In this document: positions 10,735 through 41,050 of the stretch, piece by piece
Layout of the letters: each line of letters begins with the position of its first letter
Numbering within the stretch: position 1 is the stretch's first letter
Source of the DNA: Umbilicaria muhlenbergii
Taxonomy: Eukaryota > Ascomycota > Lecanoromycetes > Umbilicariales > Umbilicariaceae
Length of the DNA stretch: 64,000 nucleotides
Direction of reading: 5' to 3'
NCBI GenBank assembly: GCA_000611775.1
Contig: KK106987.1
Coordinates: 744,001 to 808,000, forward strand
The notes under the pieces: generated by a model
What the model was told of the DNA's origin: nothing
The model's input: only the letters and a program-made list of their open reading frames with translations
The model's database searches: none
Translations under genes and position numbers: made by a program

Positions 10735-11763
10735 TCAGGCTTCTGGATTTACCCCCGAGCCGTCGTTCTTTGTGTCAGGCGATTCGACTTTGACCTCACC
10801 CTCCTTCACCCCCTTTTCCTCCGCTCCCTTCCTCTCCTCCCTCCTCCTCTCCACCCACCCCCCCAACTCCCTCCACACCGCCTCCTTCTCATGCGGTCTC
10901 ATCCCCGCCGCCAACCCACTCGTAGTCGTAGCCACAAACACCCTCGCCCCCACCCACCCCTCCCGCCCCCTCACCACCCCCATTCTCTCCCCCTCCCCTT
11001 GCCACCCATACCTAAACTCCCCCTTCCTCATCCCCCTCCCATACCGAACCCGCCACACACTCTCCCAAATCCCCTTCCCCACGATACACACCGCCTCCGG
11101 CCGCCACTTCGAAATCTTCGCCTCCAACACCGGCACCCCCGCATCCATCTCCGCTTTACTCAACTCACTCGCGTCCTTGGTCGGCCGAGCCACGATGTTC
11201 GTGTGCCCCATCCTGTACAACCGCGGCAAGTCGCGATCTTCGTCGGGTCGACACCGGCGGGGCGTGCACCCCGACGAGTGGAGGAGTTTCCAGAAGAGAT
11301 TCGACGGGTGCGCGTAGGCGTGGCCGGCGGTGGCGGTTTGGAGGCCGGGGTTGACGCCGATGAAGACGCAGATGAGGTTGGGGGCGAGGGAGTCGATGAG
11401 GTTGTTTTGCAGGTGGGCGTATTTGCTTGGGGGGGCGTAGCCGGAGGGGGGGCGCTTGGGTTTTTTCTTGGAGTTGGGGGAGGGGGAAGGGGATGGGGAG
11501 GGAGAGAGGGTGGAGGCAGAGAGGGTGGAGGCAGAGAGGGTGGAGGCGGGTTCGGTGGCTTTTCGTTTGAGGTGGGAGCGGGTTGGGGGTGGTGATGGGG
11601 CTGCGGCTTTCGAGCCTGCGGTGGTGGTTCGTCTCTTAGGTGGTGATGTGGAAGTTGGGCTGAAAGCGTATTGCTGGAGTCCGCTTTTGAAGCTTGAGAG
11701 CTTGGGGGTTGGATCGGCGCTGAAGGGTTCATCGGTGGGGAGCGATTGCTCGACTCCAGTCAT
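10735..11763 (-). CDS. G/T-U mismatch-specific DNA glycosylase (TDG/Mug family)
   Basis: An uninterrupted frame of 342 residues. The first 115 or so residues are disordered and basic, with a repeated STLSA unit encoded by a 15-base tandem repeat (about 11507-11551). The catalytic domain follows: the active-site strand GVNPGLQTA (with Asn), HPSNLFWKLLHSSG, GHTNIVARPT, the helix with VCIVGKGIWE, and the late loop ATTTSGLAAG, which replaces the more usual P-x-x-SG type. These motifs define the Mug/TDG branch of uracil-DNA glycosylases, which remove U or T mispaired with G after deamination and start base-excision repair in the nucleus. The C-terminal 40 residues are charged and probably disordered. 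Confidence 0.92.
   Translation of the reverse strand: MTGVEQSLPTDEPFSADPTPKLSSFKSGLQQYAFSPTSTSPPKRRTTTAGSKAAAPSPPPTRSHLKRKATEPASTLSASTLSASTLSPSPSPSPSPNSKKKPKRPPSGYAPPSKYAHLQNNLIDSLAPNLICVFIGVNPGLQTATAGHAYAHPSNLFWKLLHSSGCTPRRCRPDEDRDLPRLYRMGHTNIVARPTKDASELSKAEMDAGVPVLEAKISKWRPEAVCIVGKGIWESVWRVRYGRGMRKGEFRYGWQGEGERMGVVRGREGWVGARVFVATTTSGLAAGMRPHEKEAVWRELGGWVERRREERKGAEEKGVKEGEVKVESPDTKNDGSGVNPEA
11507..11551 (-). repeat. 15-base tandem repeat inside the glycosylase gene
   Basis: Three tandem 15-base units encode STLSA, STLSA and STLSP in the disordered N-terminal region, followed by a run of Ser-Pro pairs. Copy number in such coding minisatellites often differs between strains. Confidence 0.7.
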
Positions 11764-19798: not shown

Positions 19799-21214
19799 CC
19801 CGTAGGCTGCAGGGGGGGGCGCCCGGGGGACTCAGGGAACCCTCGCGATCACTCCACCACACAGGCGATCCCTCAAGGTTCCACGAGAGCACATTACGGT
19901 AGAGATCAAGGACGCCTGCCATTTACATCTTTCCTGATCCCTTTCGAATCCCTCTCGTTCCCAACTCTGGTACCTTAGTCAACAGGGCCCCGGCCGAGGG
20001 CTGGCACTTGCTGTGTCTGCCCAGTCCGATGCCTGCCTATCACCCTTGATTTCCCCACGTCGAGGAAAGACAGAGCGTATCGCAACACTGCTTTCGGAAG
20101 GTGAAAGCCGAGCCCACAATCCTCCCCAAGGCTTTCAATTGCCGACCGGGAAAACTGGAACTTGGATCAGATGCGATGAGAAGCGTTACACAGACCAATA
20201 GAAGAACACTGAGGCCAGAAGAGAATGCCGCCTTCCACCATCTGGGATAATTTGGACGGGTACACCCCTTTTCCGTGTTGGCAAGGAACCACTGGAACCT
20301 ACGAGCAAGGCAAAGGAGGATTTATGAAGACGGACCCTGGCGCGGGCGTTAATGCAAGGGCGCCGACCAATAGCGTCATCGTCCGCGCACGCCTGACTTT
20401 GGGCTCATCGTTTGGTTCAGAATATTTGCACAGTGCTAGGTCAGATACGTCAACCTTGAATGATACTTACGGACCCTGAAGAGTCCAATGGACGAGGCCG
20501 AGTCATACGATCTGCCAATGAATTAGATGTTCTAACAGGGGTGAGGTTCTGGTGTAGTAATCTCGTGCTCAGTGCCTGCGACTGTGCCCTTCCTTTGACG
20601 AATCCCGTCGATGTGAAGGTGGAGCTGATATTGATAATGAGTCTCCCTTCCGAGTGAGGGGATCCAGGCTACCTCCAGCAATCTATTAACATCAGAATGC
20701 AAGACCTGGAAACCTTGTCACTGCGGATTACAGAGCTCAACGGCGTCTAAAGATTTACAGAATTCATCTCCTGAAGGCCTGATATCGGTGCTTTTTTATG
20801 TTGAGGGTCCCCTGTTAAAACTGCCATTTGTATTGATCTCACGCCTGGCTGTTAAATTGATGATCGGCGTGTTTCCAGTATCTTCAGGCTTGGAGACCGA
20901 GAGTTTTCACTTTGAATTTGCCGTCCTGCTGCTTGCATTCTTGTGCTGTGTTTGGTGAAGAATGTACTAAAGATGTTTGTGGCTGATGCTAGAGTTTACC
21001 TTTATGTTGCCCGCTCCATAAAGGACCCCACCGAAGGTGAAACTTCATCGTCCGGTCAGCCTCTCGAATCTGATTCGTGTGAATCATGCCCGACCATCTC
21101 CCCAGTGAGGCCAAAGGCAAAGCGCGAGATTAGTGGGAAGGCCAATTCTTAGGGTTGAAGCATTCACATTTCGCGGTGGCGCTGGCGGGAATTTGTGGCT
21201 AGCAGTAGCAGATC

Positions 21215-21220
21215 TATAAA
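21215..21220 (+). promoter_or_regulatory. TATA box of the chitinase gene
   Basis: A TATAAA sits 94 bases upstream of the proposed chitinase start. It lies inside the upstream extension of the open frame (which begins at 21195), so transcription should start after that first codon. This supports the ATG at 21309. Confidence 0.5.
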
Positions 21221-21308
21221 GTACAGAGTACCTGCCCACCATGTCTCTGTGACTGCGTCTTTCAACTCTTTCACCGCTTCCATTGACCTCGCGCCAAAGT
21301 TCCCATTC

Positions 21309-23015
21309 ATGCCAATCATGTTGTCCCGGATTTCATTGACCTTGACTTTCGCCCTCGTCTCTCTGATATGTCATACTTCCCCGTCTGTTGCAAGTCATGC
21401 GCGCTTGTCTCGAGGGAGGCATCACCAGCTGGCAAGAGATACCGACTTGGGAGAAGTTCGTCAAGGCGTTGAAACGCGTGGAGATGAGGTGCACGATCTT
21501 ACGAAACGTCAAGGAGTAACTGTCGAGATCCCATTGGCCGACATCCAGCTACTTCAATCCGAGATCACCGCTTTTGGGCAGCGCATGTCGGCTTTACTTG
21601 CGTCCTCAAACGACTTGGCCTCTACGGACCCCATCAATGTGTTGCAGCAAGAGATCACGGCCTATGAGGGGCGGATTCAGGCATGGCTAGACCTACCAGG
21701 CGTCACGAGTGCTGGTGCTATAAAATCAGCAGCCTCCCTCATTTCCGTGTCTCTACCAACATCATTGTCTATTCCAGACGGTCAAATGTATCAACGGGCG
21801 AAAACGTACGTATCTAAAACGCCCACTGTACGTAGTACGAGCAGCACGAGCAGCACTAGCAGTACAAAACCGAGATCGACTCCCCCGAGCAAGACGCCTA
21901 AAACTGTCATTGTGAAAGCACCCACCACGACGAGTACACCAACGAACATCTCAACTTCGCCAGTTGCCACTACCGTGTCTTCGAAAACACCCTCGTCCAG
22001 TCCAGTGGCGAACTATACTTACAGGTTCAACCCCACCGCCTCGGACAACGTCGCCGTATACTACGGCCAAACAGCCGCCACAGGCCAAACCAACCTCACC
22101 TTACTGTGCGAAGACCCTAGCATCGACATCGTGATCCTAGCCTTCCTAATCCAATACTTCGGCCCCGGCGGCTACCCCACCGTCAACTTCGGCGCCGCCT
22201 GCGGTGGCCAAAGCCCCGAACAGCAACAAGCAGGCGCATCCGGTCTCCTAAGCTGCGGCATCCTCGCCTCCCAAGTCTCCGCCTGCCAAGCCCTAGGCAA
22301 GAAAGTGCTCCTAAGTCTCGGCGGAGCGGTCTCAACCTCATCCTTCGCCAGCGACGATCAAGCGACGCAATTCGCCGCCCAGCTCTGGAATCTCTTCGGC
22401 GGCGGCTCCGCCTACACCCCCGGCATGCGCCCCCTCGGCTCGGTCATAGTCGATGGTTTCGATATCGGTAACCCCTTCCTCCCTTTTCACCCCTGCCACA
22501 CCAATACCATGTATATCTCAACTCACCCACTAACCCCCCCCGGCACAGATAACGAAAATAACAACCCAACCTCCTACACCACCTTCGCCCTCTCCCTTCG
22601 TGCCCAATTCGCCTCCGACCCCTCAAAACCCTACTACCTATCCGCCGCGCCCCAGTGCCCCCGCCCCGACGCTTCCATTCCCCTGCAGGCGATGCAAGCC
22701 GCCGATTTCGTCTGGGTGCAATTCTACAACAACGGCGACTGCAACATCGGGCAACCCGGTTTCGCCGCCTCTTTTGCGGCTTGGAGCGCCGATCTGGCGG
22801 CCGCGGGCGGGGGGCCGAGGTTGTTTATTGGGGCGCCGGCGTGGGCGGGGGGCGGGACGGGGTATTTGCCGCCTGATCAGATGGCGGCGGTGATTCAGGG
22901 GGCGAGGGCGCAGGGGGTGAGTAATTTTGGGGGGGTGATGTTGTGGGATGGGTCGGAGGCGGAGTTGAACGGCCAGTATGAGGACAGCGTGAAGGGGGCG
23001 TTGCAGGGGCAGTGA
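21309..23015 (+). CDS. Secreted GH18 chitinase (class III type)
   Basis: Two exons, 21309-22467 and 22549-23015, give 541 residues. The start is chosen because a signal peptide begins there (SRISLTLTFALVSLICH) and a TATA box lies just upstream. A dibasic site LTKR|QG (about residue 60) suggests Kex2 processing. A helical region and a Ser/Thr/Pro-rich linker (about 170-235) follow, then the GH18 barrel: NVAVYYGQTAATGQTNL, KKVLLSLGGAVSTS, and the catalytic DGxDxDxE motif, here DGFDIDNE, formed only after splicing. The barrel closes with WVQFYNNGDCN and GVMLWDGSEA. Class III chitinases cleave beta-1,4-GlcNAc polymers in the cell wall. The 81-base intron (22468-22548) is in frame and free of stops, so an unspliced product would carry 27 extra residues inside the active-site motif. 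Confidence 0.92.
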   Translation: MPIMLSRISLTLTFALVSLICHTSPSVASHARLSRGRHHQLARDTDLGEVRQGVETRGDEVHDLTKRQGVTVEIPLADIQLLQSEITAFGQRMSALLASSNDLASTDPINVLQQEITAYEGRIQAWLDLPGVTSAGAIKSAASLISVSLPTSLSIPDGQMYQRAKTYVSKTPTVRSTSSTSSTSSTKPRSTPPSKTPKTVIVKAPTTTSTPTNISTSPVATTVSSKTPSSSPVANYTYRFNPTASDNVAVYYGQTAATGQTNLTLLCEDPSIDIVILAFLIQYFGPGGYPTVNFGAACGGQSPEQQQAGASGLLSCGILASQVSACQALGKKVLLSLGGAVSTSSFASDDQATQFAAQLWNLFGGGSAYTPGMRPLGSVIVDGFDIGNPFLPFHPCHTNTMYISTHPLTPPGTDNENNNPTSYTTFALSLRAQFASDPSKPYYLSAAPQCPRPDASIPLQAMQAADFVWVQFYNNGDCNIGQPGFAASFAAWSADLAAAGGGPRLFIGAPAWAGGGTGYLPPDQMAAVIQGARAQGVSNFGGVMLWDGSEAELNGQYEDSVKGALQGQ

Positions 23016-29845: not shown

Positions 29846-30124
29846 AGTGCACCGCAATAGTGCCTGTCTGCGGAGTACAACAAAAATGCTGTCATCGAGA
29901 GCAGGATCTGTACATATGCATTATTGCTCTCATTAGGTTGTAACCAACATCGCATTCCGCAAAAGTGGCCTGAATGAATTGGCGCGTCAATCGCAGTGCT
30001 ATAAGCTGTCAGCCCTACGAGACCCGTGCTTCTCCGCAGGGCACGGACCAATGCCAAAATTCTTTGGCAGATGCGCAAAGCTCAGCGAACGGTCGAAGAG
30101 ACGGCGCCATTGCGCCGGTTCGCA
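29846..30124. promoter_or_regulatory. Divergent promoter of the J-protein and RPA43
   Basis: A 279-base spacer between head-to-head starts. The RPA43 frame extends upstream to 30026, and part of this region could be translated if that start is used. Confidence 0.45.
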
Positions 30125-31174
30125 ATGTCTATGGAGGACGAGTCGTCTTTAGGCATGACTCCAAGGAGTCACAAAAAGTCTCGCGACAACGCGGAAAGGA
30201 AGAGTGAAAAGAAGCGGAAGAGGGAGATCCAAGAGGATACCGAGGCCTCACCATCTAAGAGACACCAACCCGAGCAGAGTTTAGAGCCTTCAGCAGCGCA
30301 AAACGATCCAGCGGAAGCCTCAAGATCGCCCGAAGACTCACCTTTTCATTTACAAACTTCATCCCTCTACCTTCCTCTATCGCCAATAGCTCAGCTTCAT
30401 CCGTTGCAAGGTCTATGCGCCGAGCATCTATCGCCACTGATCCTGACCTATCATCCACTGTTCCATGGCGTCATACTGTCATACAGCAATGTGCGACTCT
30501 TGGAGGACCTTCGAAGACCCGATGCTAATGGCGCAGGGGAAAAGGTGCTCGCAAGGTCGATTGACGAATACGCGGTGAGCTTTGTTTGGGTTACCGCAGA
30601 CTTCGTCATCTTCAAGCCGCAGAGTGGAGGATGGATTGAGGGATGGATCAATCTGCAAAATGAAGGACATCTAGGGCTTGTGTGTTGGAATCTGTTCAAT
30701 GCAAGCATCGACCGGAGCCGGTTGCCGAAGGAGTGGAAATGGGTAGCGGGAGGTATGGGTGGCCGGCGGAAATCGAGCCTAAAAAAGCGGGGGAAAAGCT
30801 CTGAAGTCGAAGACATGGAGCAGCGAGATGAGGCCAATGATGTTGAGGAAGTGGAGGGATATTTTGAAGACTCAGAAGGCCAGAAGATTGAGGGAAAGAT
30901 CAGATTCCGGGTCAAGGATATAGTACCTTCGTCAACCTCGGAGCCAGAGAAGGGTTTCCTAAGTATCGAGGGAACCATGCTGGATGAGGAGGAGGAGGAT
31001 CATCTGGTAGAACAAGACAAGGGCAGGGTACGGAGGAAAGGGCGGGTGCCGTCAGGACGGCGTGTGCAAACTGATCACACTATAGCCGGCGCATTGGGAA
31101 ACGGTCAGCTTGATGGCGTTGGTGCAGAGAACGTAGATGGGTCCCGGACCACTAAGCACAGGGTCACATATTAG
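30125..31174 (+). CDS. RPA43: RNA polymerase I subunit A43
   Basis: An uninterrupted frame. From the ATG at 30125 it gives 349 residues; an upstream in-frame ATG at 30026 would add 33 basic residues that are not typical of the family. A charged, lysine-rich N terminus precedes the conserved core: SSLYLPLSPIAQLHPLQGLC, AEHLSPLILTYHPLFHGVIL and SYSNVRLLED. An OB-fold region follows, with VSFVWVTADFVIFKPQSGGW and HLGLVCWNLFNASIDRSRLP. The C-terminal third is acidic and then basic. A43 forms the Pol I stalk with A14 and binds Rrn3 for rDNA transcription in the nucleolus. The match to fungal RPA43 is clear from the SxYLPxSPxxQxHPLxGxCAEHLSPL motif. Confidence 0.92.
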   Translation: MSMEDESSLGMTPRSHKKSRDNAERKSEKKRKREIQEDTEASPSKRHQPEQSLEPSAAQNDPAEASRSPEDSPFHLQTSSLYLPLSPIAQLHPLQGLCAEHLSPLILTYHPLFHGVILSYSNVRLLEDLRRPDANGAGEKVLARSIDEYAVSFVWVTADFVIFKPQSGGWIEGWINLQNEGHLGLVCWNLFNASIDRSRLPKEWKWVAGGMGGRRKSSLKKRGKSSEVEDMEQRDEANDVEEVEGYFEDSEGQKIEGKIRFRVKDIVPSSTSEPEKGFLSIEGTMLDEEEEDHLVEQDKGRVRRKGRVPSGRRVQTDHTIAGALGNGQLDGVGAENVDGSRTTKHRVTY

Positions 31175-31434: not shown

Positions 31435-34400
31435 ATGAGGCTACAATTGACAATCCAGAGGCATAACCTGCCACCCACGCAGGTTTTGTGGGTTGTTGGC
31501 GGACTCCGTCCGCCCTATGCCGCTGCTGGTGCCAGCCCTACTATCTCGCAATTGCTCGAACAGGTCAATGAGATCATACCGCTTGAGTCAGAGGATTGGG
31601 GACTCGAAGACTATGCTGTAGAAGTACAGGGATTTGAGTGTTTGCACTTCTCGGAGCTGAGCCAGATACTGAAGGAGGATGACGAAGTCAGGTAGAAAGC
31701 AGAATGCCCACCTTCTTTGACCGACAACACACGTACTGAAACACGAGTATAGCATCCGACCTTTGCAAACCTCGGATTTACGTTTTCGTAGGTTATCGGG
31801 ACGACATCAAATCTCGGCCGACGGTAAGCATCTGATTGACGGCGTTGCGTTTGGCCGGCCATACTTAAGAAGAGGCGACCGACCTACGATCAAGATACCC
31901 CCAAGGAAACGAAGGAGACTGACATACGGCGATGACGCGGATCTTGGTGCTGGCGAGCACTCTAACGATCGACAGATTGTACTTAGAGCTGGGTTCGATA
32001 ATGCAGACGATGAGAGCCAAGATGATAGTGAAGACGATGAAGAATATGACCCAGATGAAGACCAGGATGCGCTGGACGAAGAGCTCAAAGACCTCTCTGA
32101 GGAGCTCCAAGCTCTCGTGGACGAAGACGAGCAGCAATATTTGGATATCACAGAGAGAGCACTAGACTTAGATGGCGTAGGTGAGGTCCGTGGCCGGTTC
32201 ACTAGGTCACAGCGGACTACGCGCGGTCTCGGACTTGGAGGTGACAATATCTTGGAACTTACGGATGAAAACGGCCGACGGTATCCTGGGGACTATTACA
32301 ATCCGCTACTGGACTACTATGATCAAGACGACTTGGTTATAGACAGACACGTCGGCAAGAAGCAAAGCAGGAGAAAGACGCAAGCCCAACTACCACTAGC
32401 TGGAGATTTCACGATCGCTTTACCGGCAGGTTCTAGACGGGGAAACAGACGGAGACGGAGTTCGAGTGCTAGTACGAAGAACGTACGCTTCGAGGACCGT
32501 GAACCAAGACCACCGACTACTATCCCTGAGGACGAAAGTTTCCAGCCTAACGACCTCGTAGATAGTGGGTCGGATGAATCCGACAAAGAAAACGCGAAGC
32601 CAGACGTGGTAGACAGTGAATCAAGTGAGGTATGCAGCTCTCCATGAGCAACCTGAGCCGTGTCCCAAGAATATCGTACATCACAAAATAGCAGTCTGAC
32701 ACTGCGCCAAACACAGGTCTCGTCGTCTAGTGACGAGTCAGTATCCACCATATCTTCAGATACCGATTCCAATGACTCGGAGACCTCGTCTTCGTCGTCT
32801 TCCACATCAAGCAGTAGCAGTTCCGAGTCAGAAGCTGAGCTCTCTGTAGAAAAGCAACAGCCAAACATGAAAGTGCACACTACGGAGGCTCCTAATTTCA
32901 AGGCAGCGATTGCTAAAGATACTTCGTCAATGCCAACGGATGCGCCAGTGGACTCGGTTCGCAATGTCCCTCCTGGTCAGGGACGGAAAGAGACTCGAAT
33001 GCGCAACCAAAGGCGACGCGACAGGAAAAAGATGGCACACCTAAAATCAATTGGCGTACTATCACCCGCAGCTACAATGACTGATTTCAAACAGTGGAAC
33101 GCGACTAGTCAAGCAACGGCACATACTCAACATGCTCATGAGAGTGAGGAATCGTCTTCCAAGGAACCAGATACTGCTACTGCTTTCGAAGCGACAAGAC
33201 AGGCTTTGCTCAACTCTATTGCGTCCGGTGGTATTGAAATAGAGTCAAGCCAGCCTGAGGCGCAGAAGCCATCTCACAGGTCTAAAAGTGTTGACGCAGG
33301 CGCTTCTCAAGACGTGCAGGAATCAAATTTTAATGATACTCCGGCTGCTGCACAACCTTCAAATGAGACACAACAAGCAGCATCAGAACCTCCGAGACGT
33401 CGCGCAAAACTGGACCTTGCAAGTTCCAAGCGTTTACTATTCGGATCCCTCGGTCTGCGAACTCCCAAAACTAAAAGCGATGAGCATACCCTTCGTGAGA
33501 AGCTGAGGAGGAACGTGAAGCCGATGAACAACGTCCGGAACGATCACGTTGATGACGCGGCGCCCAAGCAGGTAATCGATGGCGATAGCTGGAAAGACAA
33601 GATTATACTCAAAGCTGTGGAGTGCTGCCAAGATGGGATTGAGCTGAGCACGCCGCCATTCCCGTTTGTCCAGAGATGGGATCCGCAGCAGCAGGGGCAC
33701 TACACTAACCACAAGAATGGCCAGGGAGGCAAGAGCAAGAAACGGAAGCGTAATAAGCAGCACTGTGAAGGGCAGGAGCAGGCGCAGGTTGGAGAAAGCG
33801 ACACACGCTTAGCAGAGGCTCTGGATGACCATAAAGTCAATCAGGGCGAGCCTGGCGACGATGACCATGAGCAAGCGGTCCAGCGTGCGGATAGCGAGGG
33901 ATACGAAGGCGCCATCAATGATCAACTTATGCGAGACGCAGCTGGCATTTCTGCAACTGCACCCGATGAATCCTTAGATGCTGAGGATTTCCCGGCGCTA
34001 CCAGAGGATATGTCGACATGCAAGGTCATGGTACCAGAAGAGGCAGTACCGGGTACCATTTTTGCATTCAAGCAACTGGACATGTCACAGGATACTAGCT
34101 GGCAGCCAAAGATATCGGATTATCGTACTGCCACCGTCAACAAATTGATCGATGATGGAGTGCTTCTGATTACCCTAGCACAGCGTGATCGGCCGGAGAA
34201 GCCCAAAGCCTATGACCCACAGACCGGGAAAAGGCTGTACTCCAAGTTCGAAATGCCCGAATACGAAGACGCAGACGCCGATAATGACGATGGTGTCTTC
34301 GAGATTGCCTTTGCTGATTTGATCGAGCCAAAGTTGATACGAGCTGCCGCGGCTGAACAAATACCCAATGTGGTGGAGCGACAACCAATTGAAGTTGATG

Positions 34401-35476
34401 TTGTCGAAGCCAGAGATGGTGATATGTCCATGCCGGAAGTAGATCAGGCTCTTGCAAATGGGAGCACTGAAGCTCCGGCGGAAGAGACTAATGAGGTTCT
34501 TCAGGAGGTTGTACCTCAAGACATTAGCGAAGCTGCGGAAAAGGAAATACTGCAGATGATCAAAGAGTCTGGCTTTAATTCAGATATTGCCGATGGGGTT
34601 AATATTGAGCAAGGCTTTCAATCGCACGAGGACCCACTCAACCCCACCGCAAATGAAGTCCGTACCGACTCTAACTCGCCGAAATTCAATGGCTTCGGCT
34701 CTAGTCCGCCTGAGGAGACTACAAGCAAGCAGCTACCCTCGACACACGATGGACTAGATGATAAATCCCTGATGGTCCCACTAAGCAACGCGGAGGGTTC
34801 TGGCGATCTCGGTTTCAGACCATTTGGCAGTCGAAGCCCTGATGGTGATAGCCTTACCGGTGATGTGATTGATGAGGCCGCGCTTCCGCAACTAGATGTT
34901 GATGACGAAGGGTTTCGTCCACATGCATCTAGAGATACCGCAGAGGAAGCTGCCCATCATTTTCCTTCCCAAGAGCTCTCCACGCCCTCTTCACCTCCCC
35001 CAACAGCCTCTGAGATCGCCCGTTCCAAAGGTCGCGGATTCAGATCCCTCACACAACCCCGACCGATGTCCGCCCTCGATGGAGCAGGCTCCGATCCGGA
35101 TGATTTGCCCACACTCGAAACCGTCTATTTCGCTCGTACTCGCACTGTTAAATCCTCCACTGACAAACAAGTCGATAATTCTGAGAGCCCGGAAGAACTC
35201 CCTCGCCGAAAGTTTAGAAGCGAGTCTATTACAATCAAACACTCCAGTCCGCTCTTTGAAAATCGACCGGCAGCCTCGCAGATACCCGCCGGCTCTCAGA
35301 TCGTCGATTTGACTCTTTCGAGCGATGCTGTCGATCCGGACGGCAGCGAATATGAATACAAGGGGTCAGACTTACCGGATGGACCAGGCTGGGTCGAGAA
35401 AGGGAGGACGAGGGCTGCGAAAGCCCAGACCAAGCGGTCTACAGGCAGACCGAAAAGGACGCGGAGTGATGTGTAG
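31435..35476 (+). CDS. Coilin-like nuclear protein (N-terminal Ub-like fold, C-terminal Tudor-like domain)
   Basis: Three exons, 31435-31691, 31753-32629 and 32717-35476, give 1,297 residues. The N terminus (1-95, MRLQLTIQRHNLP to KEDDEVSIRPL) looks like the ubiquitin-like fold that opens coilin and runs into a conserved GRHQISADGKHLIDG segment; fungal members are, from memory, tagged DUF7357. Long acidic and Ser-rich tracts and a basic cluster (RNQRRRDRKKMAHLK) follow. At about 812-925 there is a block matching the atypical Tudor domain of animal coilin: GTIFAFKQLDMS, PKISDYRTATV, and after an acidic loop FEIAFADLIEPKLIR. Coilin organises Cajal bodies and snRNP assembly. The assignment rests on remembered motif patterns at both ends. 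The C-terminal 370 residues are disordered and basic at the end. Confidence 0.75.
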
Positions 35477-39169: not shown

Positions 39170-41050
39170 ATGCACCCTTCTCTGAACCTCGCATCCGTCA
39201 GCTTCCGCCGTCTCCTTCGCAAACAGTTCTCATTGACTCGACCCTTCAGACCCCAGACATCCGCTTTCAGCGTAGTAACCAGGATCATGGCACAAGAATA
39301 CAAGCTCAAGGGCCTCTCGGCTTTGGATTTGAAAGATGGGGAAAAGCGGGAGGTGGAGGTTGATGGCGTCGAAGAGGGCAAGGTTTTGCTGGTCAAGCAG
39401 GGAGGAAAGACACACGCTATGAGCTCCAAGTGCACCCATTATGGAGCACCCCTAAAGCTTGGCGTTTTGACACCGGATGGAAGATTGACGTGTGCATGGC
39501 ATGGAGGTCTGTAATGGGAAGACTCCAATCCTTAGGATTGGACATTGCTTACCGGTTTGCTTTCAGCGTGCTTCAATGTCGCTACAGGTGACGTCGAGGA
39601 TGCCCCTGCTCTTGATCCGTTGGCAAAATTCGAAATCGTAGAAAAGGATGGGGCAGTGTATATCAAGGGCGAAGAGTCTACCATCAAAAGCAGCAGGAGG
39701 TCTCCCAACTACAAGTGTTCCGCCCAGGGCCAGGAAAAAGTGGTCATCGTCGGAGGGTAAGTCATAACCCTAAACCTAGAACTTACCCGTGCATTGCTCA
39801 CAATTCTTGTGGCATATAGAGGCAGCGGCACAGTCGGAGCACTACACGCTCTGAGAGAGCAAGGATTCAAGGGCCCCATCACCGTCATCTCACGAGAGCC
39901 GAACCTTCCACTTGATCGGACTAAGCTCTCAAAAGCCCTCATGGTCGACGCTTCGAAACTCGAATGGCGCCCGAAAGAATGGTATGATGAGGCATCCATT
40001 GAGATGGTATCTGACGAGGTCTCCGGCGTAGACTTCACCAGCAAGAAGCTCTCCACCGTGTCTGGCAAAGAGTATCCTTACACCAAGCTCATTCTAGCCA
40101 CGGGCGGAACACCCAAACCACTCCCTCTTCCCGGCTTCAAGGAACTCCACAACATTTTCCTGCTCCGAATCATTACCGATGCCCAAGCCATAATGTCAGC
40201 CGTGGGCGAGGAAAAGGGCAAAAAGGTCGTAGTAATCGGCAGTTCGTTCATCGGCATGGAAGTAGCCAACTGCCTTTCGCAAAAAGGCCACACCGTCACA
40301 GTAGTAGGCATGGAATCAGCCCCCATGGAACGAGTCATGGGCGTCGAAGTCGGCTCCATCTTCCAAAAGCTCCTCGAGAAAAACGGCGTCAAATTCCGCA
40401 TGGAAGCCGGCGTCGAAAAAGCCACCCCCTCCCCCTCCAACTCCTCCAATGTCGGCGCCGTCCAGCTCAAAGACGGCACATCGCTCGAAGCCGACCTCGT
40501 CGTCCTCGGCGTCGGCGTCAAACCCGCCACCGACTTCCTCAAAGGCAAAATCGATCTCCTCGACGACGGCTCCCTCCGCACCAACGAGTCCTTTGAAGTC
40601 GAGGGCCTCAACGACGTCTACGCCATCGGCGACATCGCGACCTACCCCTACCACGGCCCCGGCGGCAACGGCACCCCAACCCGCATCGAGCACTGGAACG
40701 TAGCGCAAAATGCCGGCCGCAGCGCCGCCTACTGCATCGCGCACCCGGGCTCGAAACCGAAATCCTTCATCCCCGTCTTCTGGTCGGCGCTGGGGTCGCA
40801 GCTGCGGTATTGTGGCAACACGCCCAACGGGTGGGATGATCTGATCATCAAGGGGAACAAGGAGGACGCAAAGTTTGCGGCGTTTTATACCAAGGGGAAG
40901 ACGGTCGTCGCCGTCGCGAGTATGCAGATGGATCCGGTGATGACCAAGTGTGCGGAGTTGATGCGGAGGGGAGGGATGCCGGGGAAGAAGGAGTTGAGGG
41001 GTGGGGTGGATGTTTTGGAGGTGGGGTTGCCGGCTGCGGTGAAGATTTGA
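39170..41050 (+). CDS. Rieske-type AIF-like flavoprotein reductase
   Basis: Three exons, 39170-39506, 39567-39756 and 39820-41050, give 585 residues. A mitochondrial-type presequence rich in Arg, Ser and Phe (1-36) is followed by a Rieske [2Fe-2S] domain with CTH (88-90) and CAWH (108-111), whose last Cys/His region is completed by splicing to WHGACFNV. Then come an FAD-binding motif (VVIVGGGSGTVGALHALREQ, about 170-190), an NAD(P)H motif (VVVIGSSFIGMEVAN) and the C-terminal flavin contact DVYAIGDIATYP. This is the layout of AIFM3 and its fungal relatives, NAD(P)H-dependent redox enzymes linked to apoptosis-like death. A second ATG at residue 40 (MAQEYKLKGL) lies just before the Rieske domain. 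Confidence 0.92.

Follow-up and report, generated by a model that had tools for sequence, protein, structure and literature searches.

Coilin is the scaffold of Cajal bodies, the nuclear droplets in which the RNA-protein particles of splicing mature. According to a 2022 report, a fungal coilin orthologue had not been identified before Mug174 of Schizosaccharomyces pombe was proposed as a coilin homologue by structure matching (PMC9666668), and a further paper says likewise of yeast (PMC9530788). According to a 2024 study by Deng and colleagues, Mug174 forms Cajal body-like condensates in vitro and in vivo, binds Tgs1 with a requirement for its N-terminal segment, associates with U small nuclear RNAs (snRNAs) and is required for trimethylguanosine (TMG) capping, splicing and survival in quiescence (PMC11347179). 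Saccharomyces cerevisiae lacks coilin and SMN orthologues, according to a 2026 review (PMC12937744). Arabidopsis coilin is described as folded at its N end and disordered in its centre, followed by a Tudor-like domain and a C terminus that is disordered as well, and the same arrangement has been suggested for other coilins (PMC3539977). Here we describe a three-exon gene at 31435-35476 in a 64,000-nucleotide stretch of contig KK106987.1 of Umbilicaria muhlenbergii (the window), which on the sequence comparisons below most probably encodes a filamentous-ascomycete coilin homologue whose identity is masked by a domain of unknown function (DUF). An earlier sequence-only reading had assigned this gene the two-ended layout of coilin and had suggested that Cajal-body scaffolding in fungi may be overlooked. 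The latter view is partly outdated, as fungal coilin as such is already known from the 2022 and 2024 work on Mug174, whereas the link of DUF7357 and of filamentous fungi to coilin is apparently new: our literature search, which left subscription journals and preprints mostly uncovered, found no paper mentioning DUF7357 and, among the matches listed, neither a coilin of filamentous fungi nor a connection between DUF7357 and coilin.

The evidence that carries this assignment comes from the C-terminal end. About 800 residues into the protein, where the sequence-only reading had placed a Tudor-like block, GTIFAFKQLDMS begins at residue 824, PKISDYRTATV at residue 842 and FADLIEPKLIR at residue 910. 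A stretch of 131 amino acids containing them scored 29.1 bits against the Pfam family Tudor_Coilin (PF23086), the cut-off of which is 27, with an E value of 1.2e-6. When the genome was searched with this profile (34,788,950 bases in 7 contigs, six frames), the window gene was the single match at E<=10, with 28.1 bits; one of 14 prokaryote control genomes gave a match, which was below the cut-off, and the profile matched none of six controls made from the Tudor stretch itself (five shuffles and one reversal). For direct alignment, both ends of human and Arabidopsis coilin were taken as references and checked with Pfam, which recognised all four as coilin, with 60.8 bits (human) and 159.6 bits (Arabidopsis) for the Tudor regions on Tudor_Coilin and 128.1 and 54.6 bits for the N ends on Coilin_N (PF15862). 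The window block aligned to the human Tudor region with a score of 61 (z 6.7), sharing the AFK, SDY and LI-P-LI positions, and to the Arabidopsis region with a score of 75 (z 8.0), which adds an SSW-P / TSW-P step and an LEIEF / FEIAF strand; neither score was reached in 2000 shuffles. The yardstick, human against Arabidopsis coilin Tudor, gave 112 (z 16.1), and controls that paired opposite ends (the fungal C end with the human N end, and the fungal N end with the Arabidopsis C end) gave z values of 0.1 and 0.3. Judged by these comparisons, the block is similar beyond chance and is placed with the coilin Tudor family. This assignment to the family holds, if by a narrow margin, and the score depends on context: the 938-amino-acid frame of exon 3 reached 23.5 bits, under the cut-off.

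At the opposite end, residues 1-137 match Pfam family DUF7357 (PF24054) over the complete profile (positions 1-131 of 131, E 7.6e-60), and residues 1-150 scored 201.1 bits against a cut-off of 27. This family carries no functional name. The sequence-only reading had likened the N end to the ubiquitin-like domain of coilin, and this likeness is suggestive at most. When the N-terminal 89 amino acids were aligned globally with the Arabidopsis coilin N terminus, 2 of 5000 shuffles reached the score, and the same segment ranked first among 61 windows of the protein (100 shuffles each). The alignment is co-linear through a shared tryptophan, a TIS helix start, a GF turn and an LK-D-V end strand. We infer that DUF7357 corresponds to the coilin N-terminal fold.

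With a curated profile and direct alignment both backing the Tudor end, this gene is best explained as a coilin relative. Under this explanation the protein keeps the coilin plan: an N-terminal domain (DUF7357), then a long, charged, serine-rich middle, then an atypical Tudor domain and lastly a tail, with both middle and tail probably disordered. Coilin membership of the whole protein is probable rather than certified, since the Coilin_N profile found no match and the structure models did not settle the folds. The two-ended layout is supported by profile and alignment at the Tudor end, whereas the N-terminal end is unproven. That coilin homology comes together with a body-forming mechanism also seems likely, with less assurance than homology by itself. 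By analogy with Mug174 and with animal and plant coilin, we infer every interaction, the localisation and the nuclear body itself. Self-association and the holding of Tgs1, the enzyme that trimethylates caps, would fall to the N-terminal domain, the middle would bear nuclear localisation signals and aid condensation with RNA, and the Tudor domain would contact small nuclear ribonucleoproteins (snRNPs) or Sm proteins. The combined result would be a nuclear condensate resembling a Cajal body, in which TMG capping and spliceosomal snRNA maturation proceed faster; overall, the protein would act as an RNA-assisted condensate scaffold, driven by its N-terminal domain, that concentrates Tgs1 and snRNPs.

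SMN, NOPP140 and TGS1 have been named as partners of coilin (PMC11347179), and sequences resembling all three are present in the genome. A TGS1-like gene is marked by Methyltransf_15 matches in adjacent pieces (5.9e-26 and 5.6e-11), with two weaker matches elsewhere. As Methyltransf_15 also matches 13 of the 14 prokaryote control genomes, better evidence for TGS1 comes from the PDB, in which the TGS1-like piece matched two chains named 'Trimethylguanosine synthase homolog' (best 5.3e-13). An SMN YG-box (L008, 1501-1608; 3.7e-4) has as its best PDB match a 'Survival motor neuron-like protein 1' chain (7.2e-7), and an SRP40_C domain of the Nopp140/SRP40 type was found at 7.7e-15. Since SMN, NOPP140 and TGS1 are widespread across eukaryotes, these genes indicate the presence of the pathway and no more. 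The sole SMN_Tudor-like match lies on the same contig as the YG-box, at a different place, with an E value of 0.0125, below the cut-off.

Several results weigh against the assignment to coilin or against its extension to nuclear bodies. On the full 1297 amino acids, Tudor_Coilin scored 21.8 bits, under the cut-off, and therefore a Pfam scan at cut-offs shows the DUF alone; this fits the suggestion of the sequence-only reading that the protein is annotated only as a DUF, which here is a predicted annotation. Single-sequence searches of the genome with the human and Arabidopsis Tudor regions found no match; an empty answer of this kind is uninformative, and the relation evidently lies beyond the reach of such a search. 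A coilin profile match was obtained for the Tudor domain but not for the N end: Coilin_N gave no match in any of four Pfam searches, three of them run at E<=10 and filtered so that most matches weaker than 0.1 are removed, and the fourth giving no match in its controls either. In the reverse direction, DUF7357 was matched by neither the human nor the Arabidopsis N end. In local alignments of the N end, the score was reached by 44 of 2000 shuffles against human coilin, in a register that was not co-linear, and by 65 of 2000 against Arabidopsis coilin, a weak result. The global alignment with human coilin was equalled by 137 of 5000 shuffles, and the N end ranked second of 61 windows, another window scoring marginally higher. 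A two-sequence coilin profile did not separate the N end from its shuffles (92 of 3000 reached the score, 2402 being reported with a score), and hhalign gave the N end a probability of 0.5%. No RG box was found, with two isolated matches in the protein (RGR at residue 232 and GRG at residue 1150); this absence is not decisive, as Arabidopsis coilin also lacks an RG box (PMC3539977). Both single-sequence AlphaFold2 models were too poor for use, and the Foldseek matches obtained with them were discarded. The model of 33995-34387 (mean pLDDT 39.7) has five short strands in the matched part followed by a helix, and Foldseek against the PDB returned 430 matches at E<=10, the best at 0.28 to an unrelated chain and none at E<=0.001. 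The model of exon 1 alone (mean pLDDT 57.8) has a strand-strand-helix-strand-helix order and gave 4 matches at E<=10, the best at 5.9 and none at E<=0.001. Finally, condensates still form when Mug174 lacks its C-terminal part, and human coilin expressed in S. pombe joins foci and does not rescue the mutant (PMC11347179); Tudor homology alone is therefore no predictor of body formation.

One rather unlikely alternative is that the protein is a coilin homologue by descent that builds no Cajal bodies and is instead distributed throughout the nucleus, where it works as an adaptor for RNA or Tgs1. In favour of such an adaptor, coilin of animals also acts outside bodies. Aspergillus nidulans is moreover said to be without canonical Cajal bodies in a 2025 paper, which cites the statement from another source (PMC11964246), whereas the condensation of Mug174 in vitro and in vivo (PMC11347179) argues for a scaffold. 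Also unlikely is a filamentous-fungal nuclear protein whose one link with coilin is a coilin-like Tudor domain, with DUF7357 an unrelated fold, some other scaffold role and no orthology to coilin. The unmatched Coilin_N profile, the near-chance N-terminal likeness to human coilin, the 377-amino-acid tail and a length about twice that of human (576 amino acids, PMC9530788) or Arabidopsis coilin (608 amino acids, PMC3539977) would all suit such a protein. In contrast, both ends match coilin in order and position, the N end aligned end to end with Arabidopsis coilin beats 4998 of 5000 shuffles, and the genome holds no second Tudor_Coilin match at E<=10. In addition, we know of no coilin-type Tudor domain outside coilins. 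That both resemblances arose by chance, in a disordered fungal protein whose DUF and beta-rich segment have nothing to do with coilin, would suit the full-length Tudor_Coilin score and the empty single-sequence searches but is very improbable given the domain-level E value, the single match in 34.8 Mb, the six silent controls and the two alignments that no shuffle equalled.

The closest described coilins share different features with the window protein. Like it, Mug174 is fungal and has a basic nuclear localisation signal within a disordered centre (PMC11347179), and a TGS1-like gene is likewise present in the window genome; the N- and C-terminal likeness of Mug174 to coilin is weak according to its authors (PMC11347179). 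The two proteins belong to different lineages, the window protein having 1297 amino acids, and they are likened here by published description, their sequences being unaligned. Arabidopsis coilin gave the higher of the two Tudor scores and the best global N-end alignment, and it resembles the window protein in the disordered C terminus beside its Tudor-like domain and in the lack of an RG box (PMC3539977), but it is matched by Coilin_N and its tail is about 100 amino acids long (PMC3539977). Human coilin shares the Tudor positions given above; in contrast to the window protein, it carries an RG box ahead of the Tudor domain and ends in a tail of about 20 amino acids (PMC3539977), and its N-terminal likeness to the window protein is near chance.

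We also slightly favour a broader proposition, that DUF7357 may be the fungal coilin N-terminal domain and that coilin-based Cajal bodies may have been missed across filamentous ascomycetes, with coilin loss confined to lineages such as budding yeast. If so, the view of Aspergillus-type moulds as organisms without Cajal bodies would be wrong. If filamentous ascomycetes have a coilin, a Pfam DUF would gain a function, and genetically tractable hosts such as Neurospora and Aspergillus would become available in which the purpose of Cajal bodies could be probed; such a coilin would also bear on the site of telomerase RNA and snRNP maturation in moulds. In S. pombe, a fungal coilin is important for snRNA cap trimethylation, splicing and quiescence survival (PMC11347179).

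The gene runs from an ATG to a stop codon at exactly the boundaries that the sequence-only reading had given, and its three exons read through to give 1297 amino acids (Table 1). For intron 1, the 61-nt version was preferred because it completes the DUF7357 domain (201.1 bits, E 7.6e-60); a 100-nt version (163.3 bits, E 3.6e-48) was rejected, as the match drops by 38 bits. Intron 2 was picked by the splice consensus among many in-frame options, with a GTATGC donor, a CTGAC branch-like site and a CAG acceptor, and its predicted boundaries are unconfirmed. Elsewhere in the genome, a mitochondrial uL4-like protein matched PDB chain 6ywe_D (Neurospora mitoribosome) with 264.9 bits, while the next chain, a YmL6/uL4m of yeast (3j6b), reached 118.5 bits, a result in keeping with a filamentous ascomycete.

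Table 1. Predicted features of the coilin-like gene, in window coordinates
Feature	Positions	Strand	Basis
Exon 1: start codon and first part of DUF7357 (residues 1-85 plus two bases)	31435..31691	+	PF24054 E 3.7e-32, exon alone
Intron 1 (61 nt, GTAGAA...TAG), predicted	31692..31752	+	completes DUF7357 match
Exon 2: remaining DUF7357 (to residue 137, base 31906), basic cluster, acidic region	31753..32629	+	PF24054, spliced residues 1-137
Basic cluster RKRRRL (residues 137-142) at DUF7357 end, possible nuclear localisation signal	31904..31921	+	pattern scan; function putative
Acidic stretch DDSEDDEE (residues 176-183)	32021..32044	+	pattern scan
Intron 2 (87 nt, GTATGC...CACAG), predicted	32630..32716	+	splice-site appearance
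Exon 3: serine-rich tract, charged middle, Tudor block, long C-terminal tail, stop	32717..35476	+	open frame
Basic cluster KKRKRNK (residues 719-725), possible nuclear or nucleolar localisation signal	33737..33757	+	pattern scan; function putative
Coilin-type Tudor domain (residues 823-920)	34049..34342	+	PF23086 29.1 bits, E 1.2e-6 on 33995-34387; alignments
C-terminal tail (residues 921-1297), 377 aa, net negative, without Pfam match	34343..35473	+	composition, Pfam scan

The acidic and basic regions that had been noted between the two ends are borne out by composition. A long, low-complexity centre rich in charged residues and serine, with basic clusters, separates both ends, and aspartate and glutamate make up 35% of residues 130-200; this middle and the tail are probably disordered, and the basic clusters may serve as signals. 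Between the basic clusters, the segment SWKDKIILKAVECCQDGIELSTPPFPFVQRWDPQQ (33587-33691, residues 669-703), which has no Pfam match, is apparently more ordered than the surrounding middle and could be a conserved fungal motif of the window protein.

The PDB sequence search gave no match for the window Tudor block, 3 matches for the window N end (best E 0.43) and 6 for the human Tudor region (best E 0.068), none of them named coilin. In contig collections of viruses and prokaryotes, tblastn confirmed none of 31 pattern matches to the Tudor block in the genome contigs and none of 30 to the DUF7357 stretch in the viral contigs. Weak matches to Astrovir_pp_1 (E 0.032), to an NCBIfam reductase (E 0.13) and, in one shuffle, to a TTHB210-like family (E 0.12) were taken as chance. 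Among the neighbouring frames of the window, a uracil DNA glycosylase domain lies at 10738-11763, a glycosyl hydrolase 18 domain at 21195-23012 and a pyridine nucleotide-disulphide reductase at 39794-41047. Some 260 bases upstream of the coilin-like gene ends a neighbour of the same orientation (30026-31171), in which the RPA43 OB domain of RNA polymerase I was recognised (7.6e-27).

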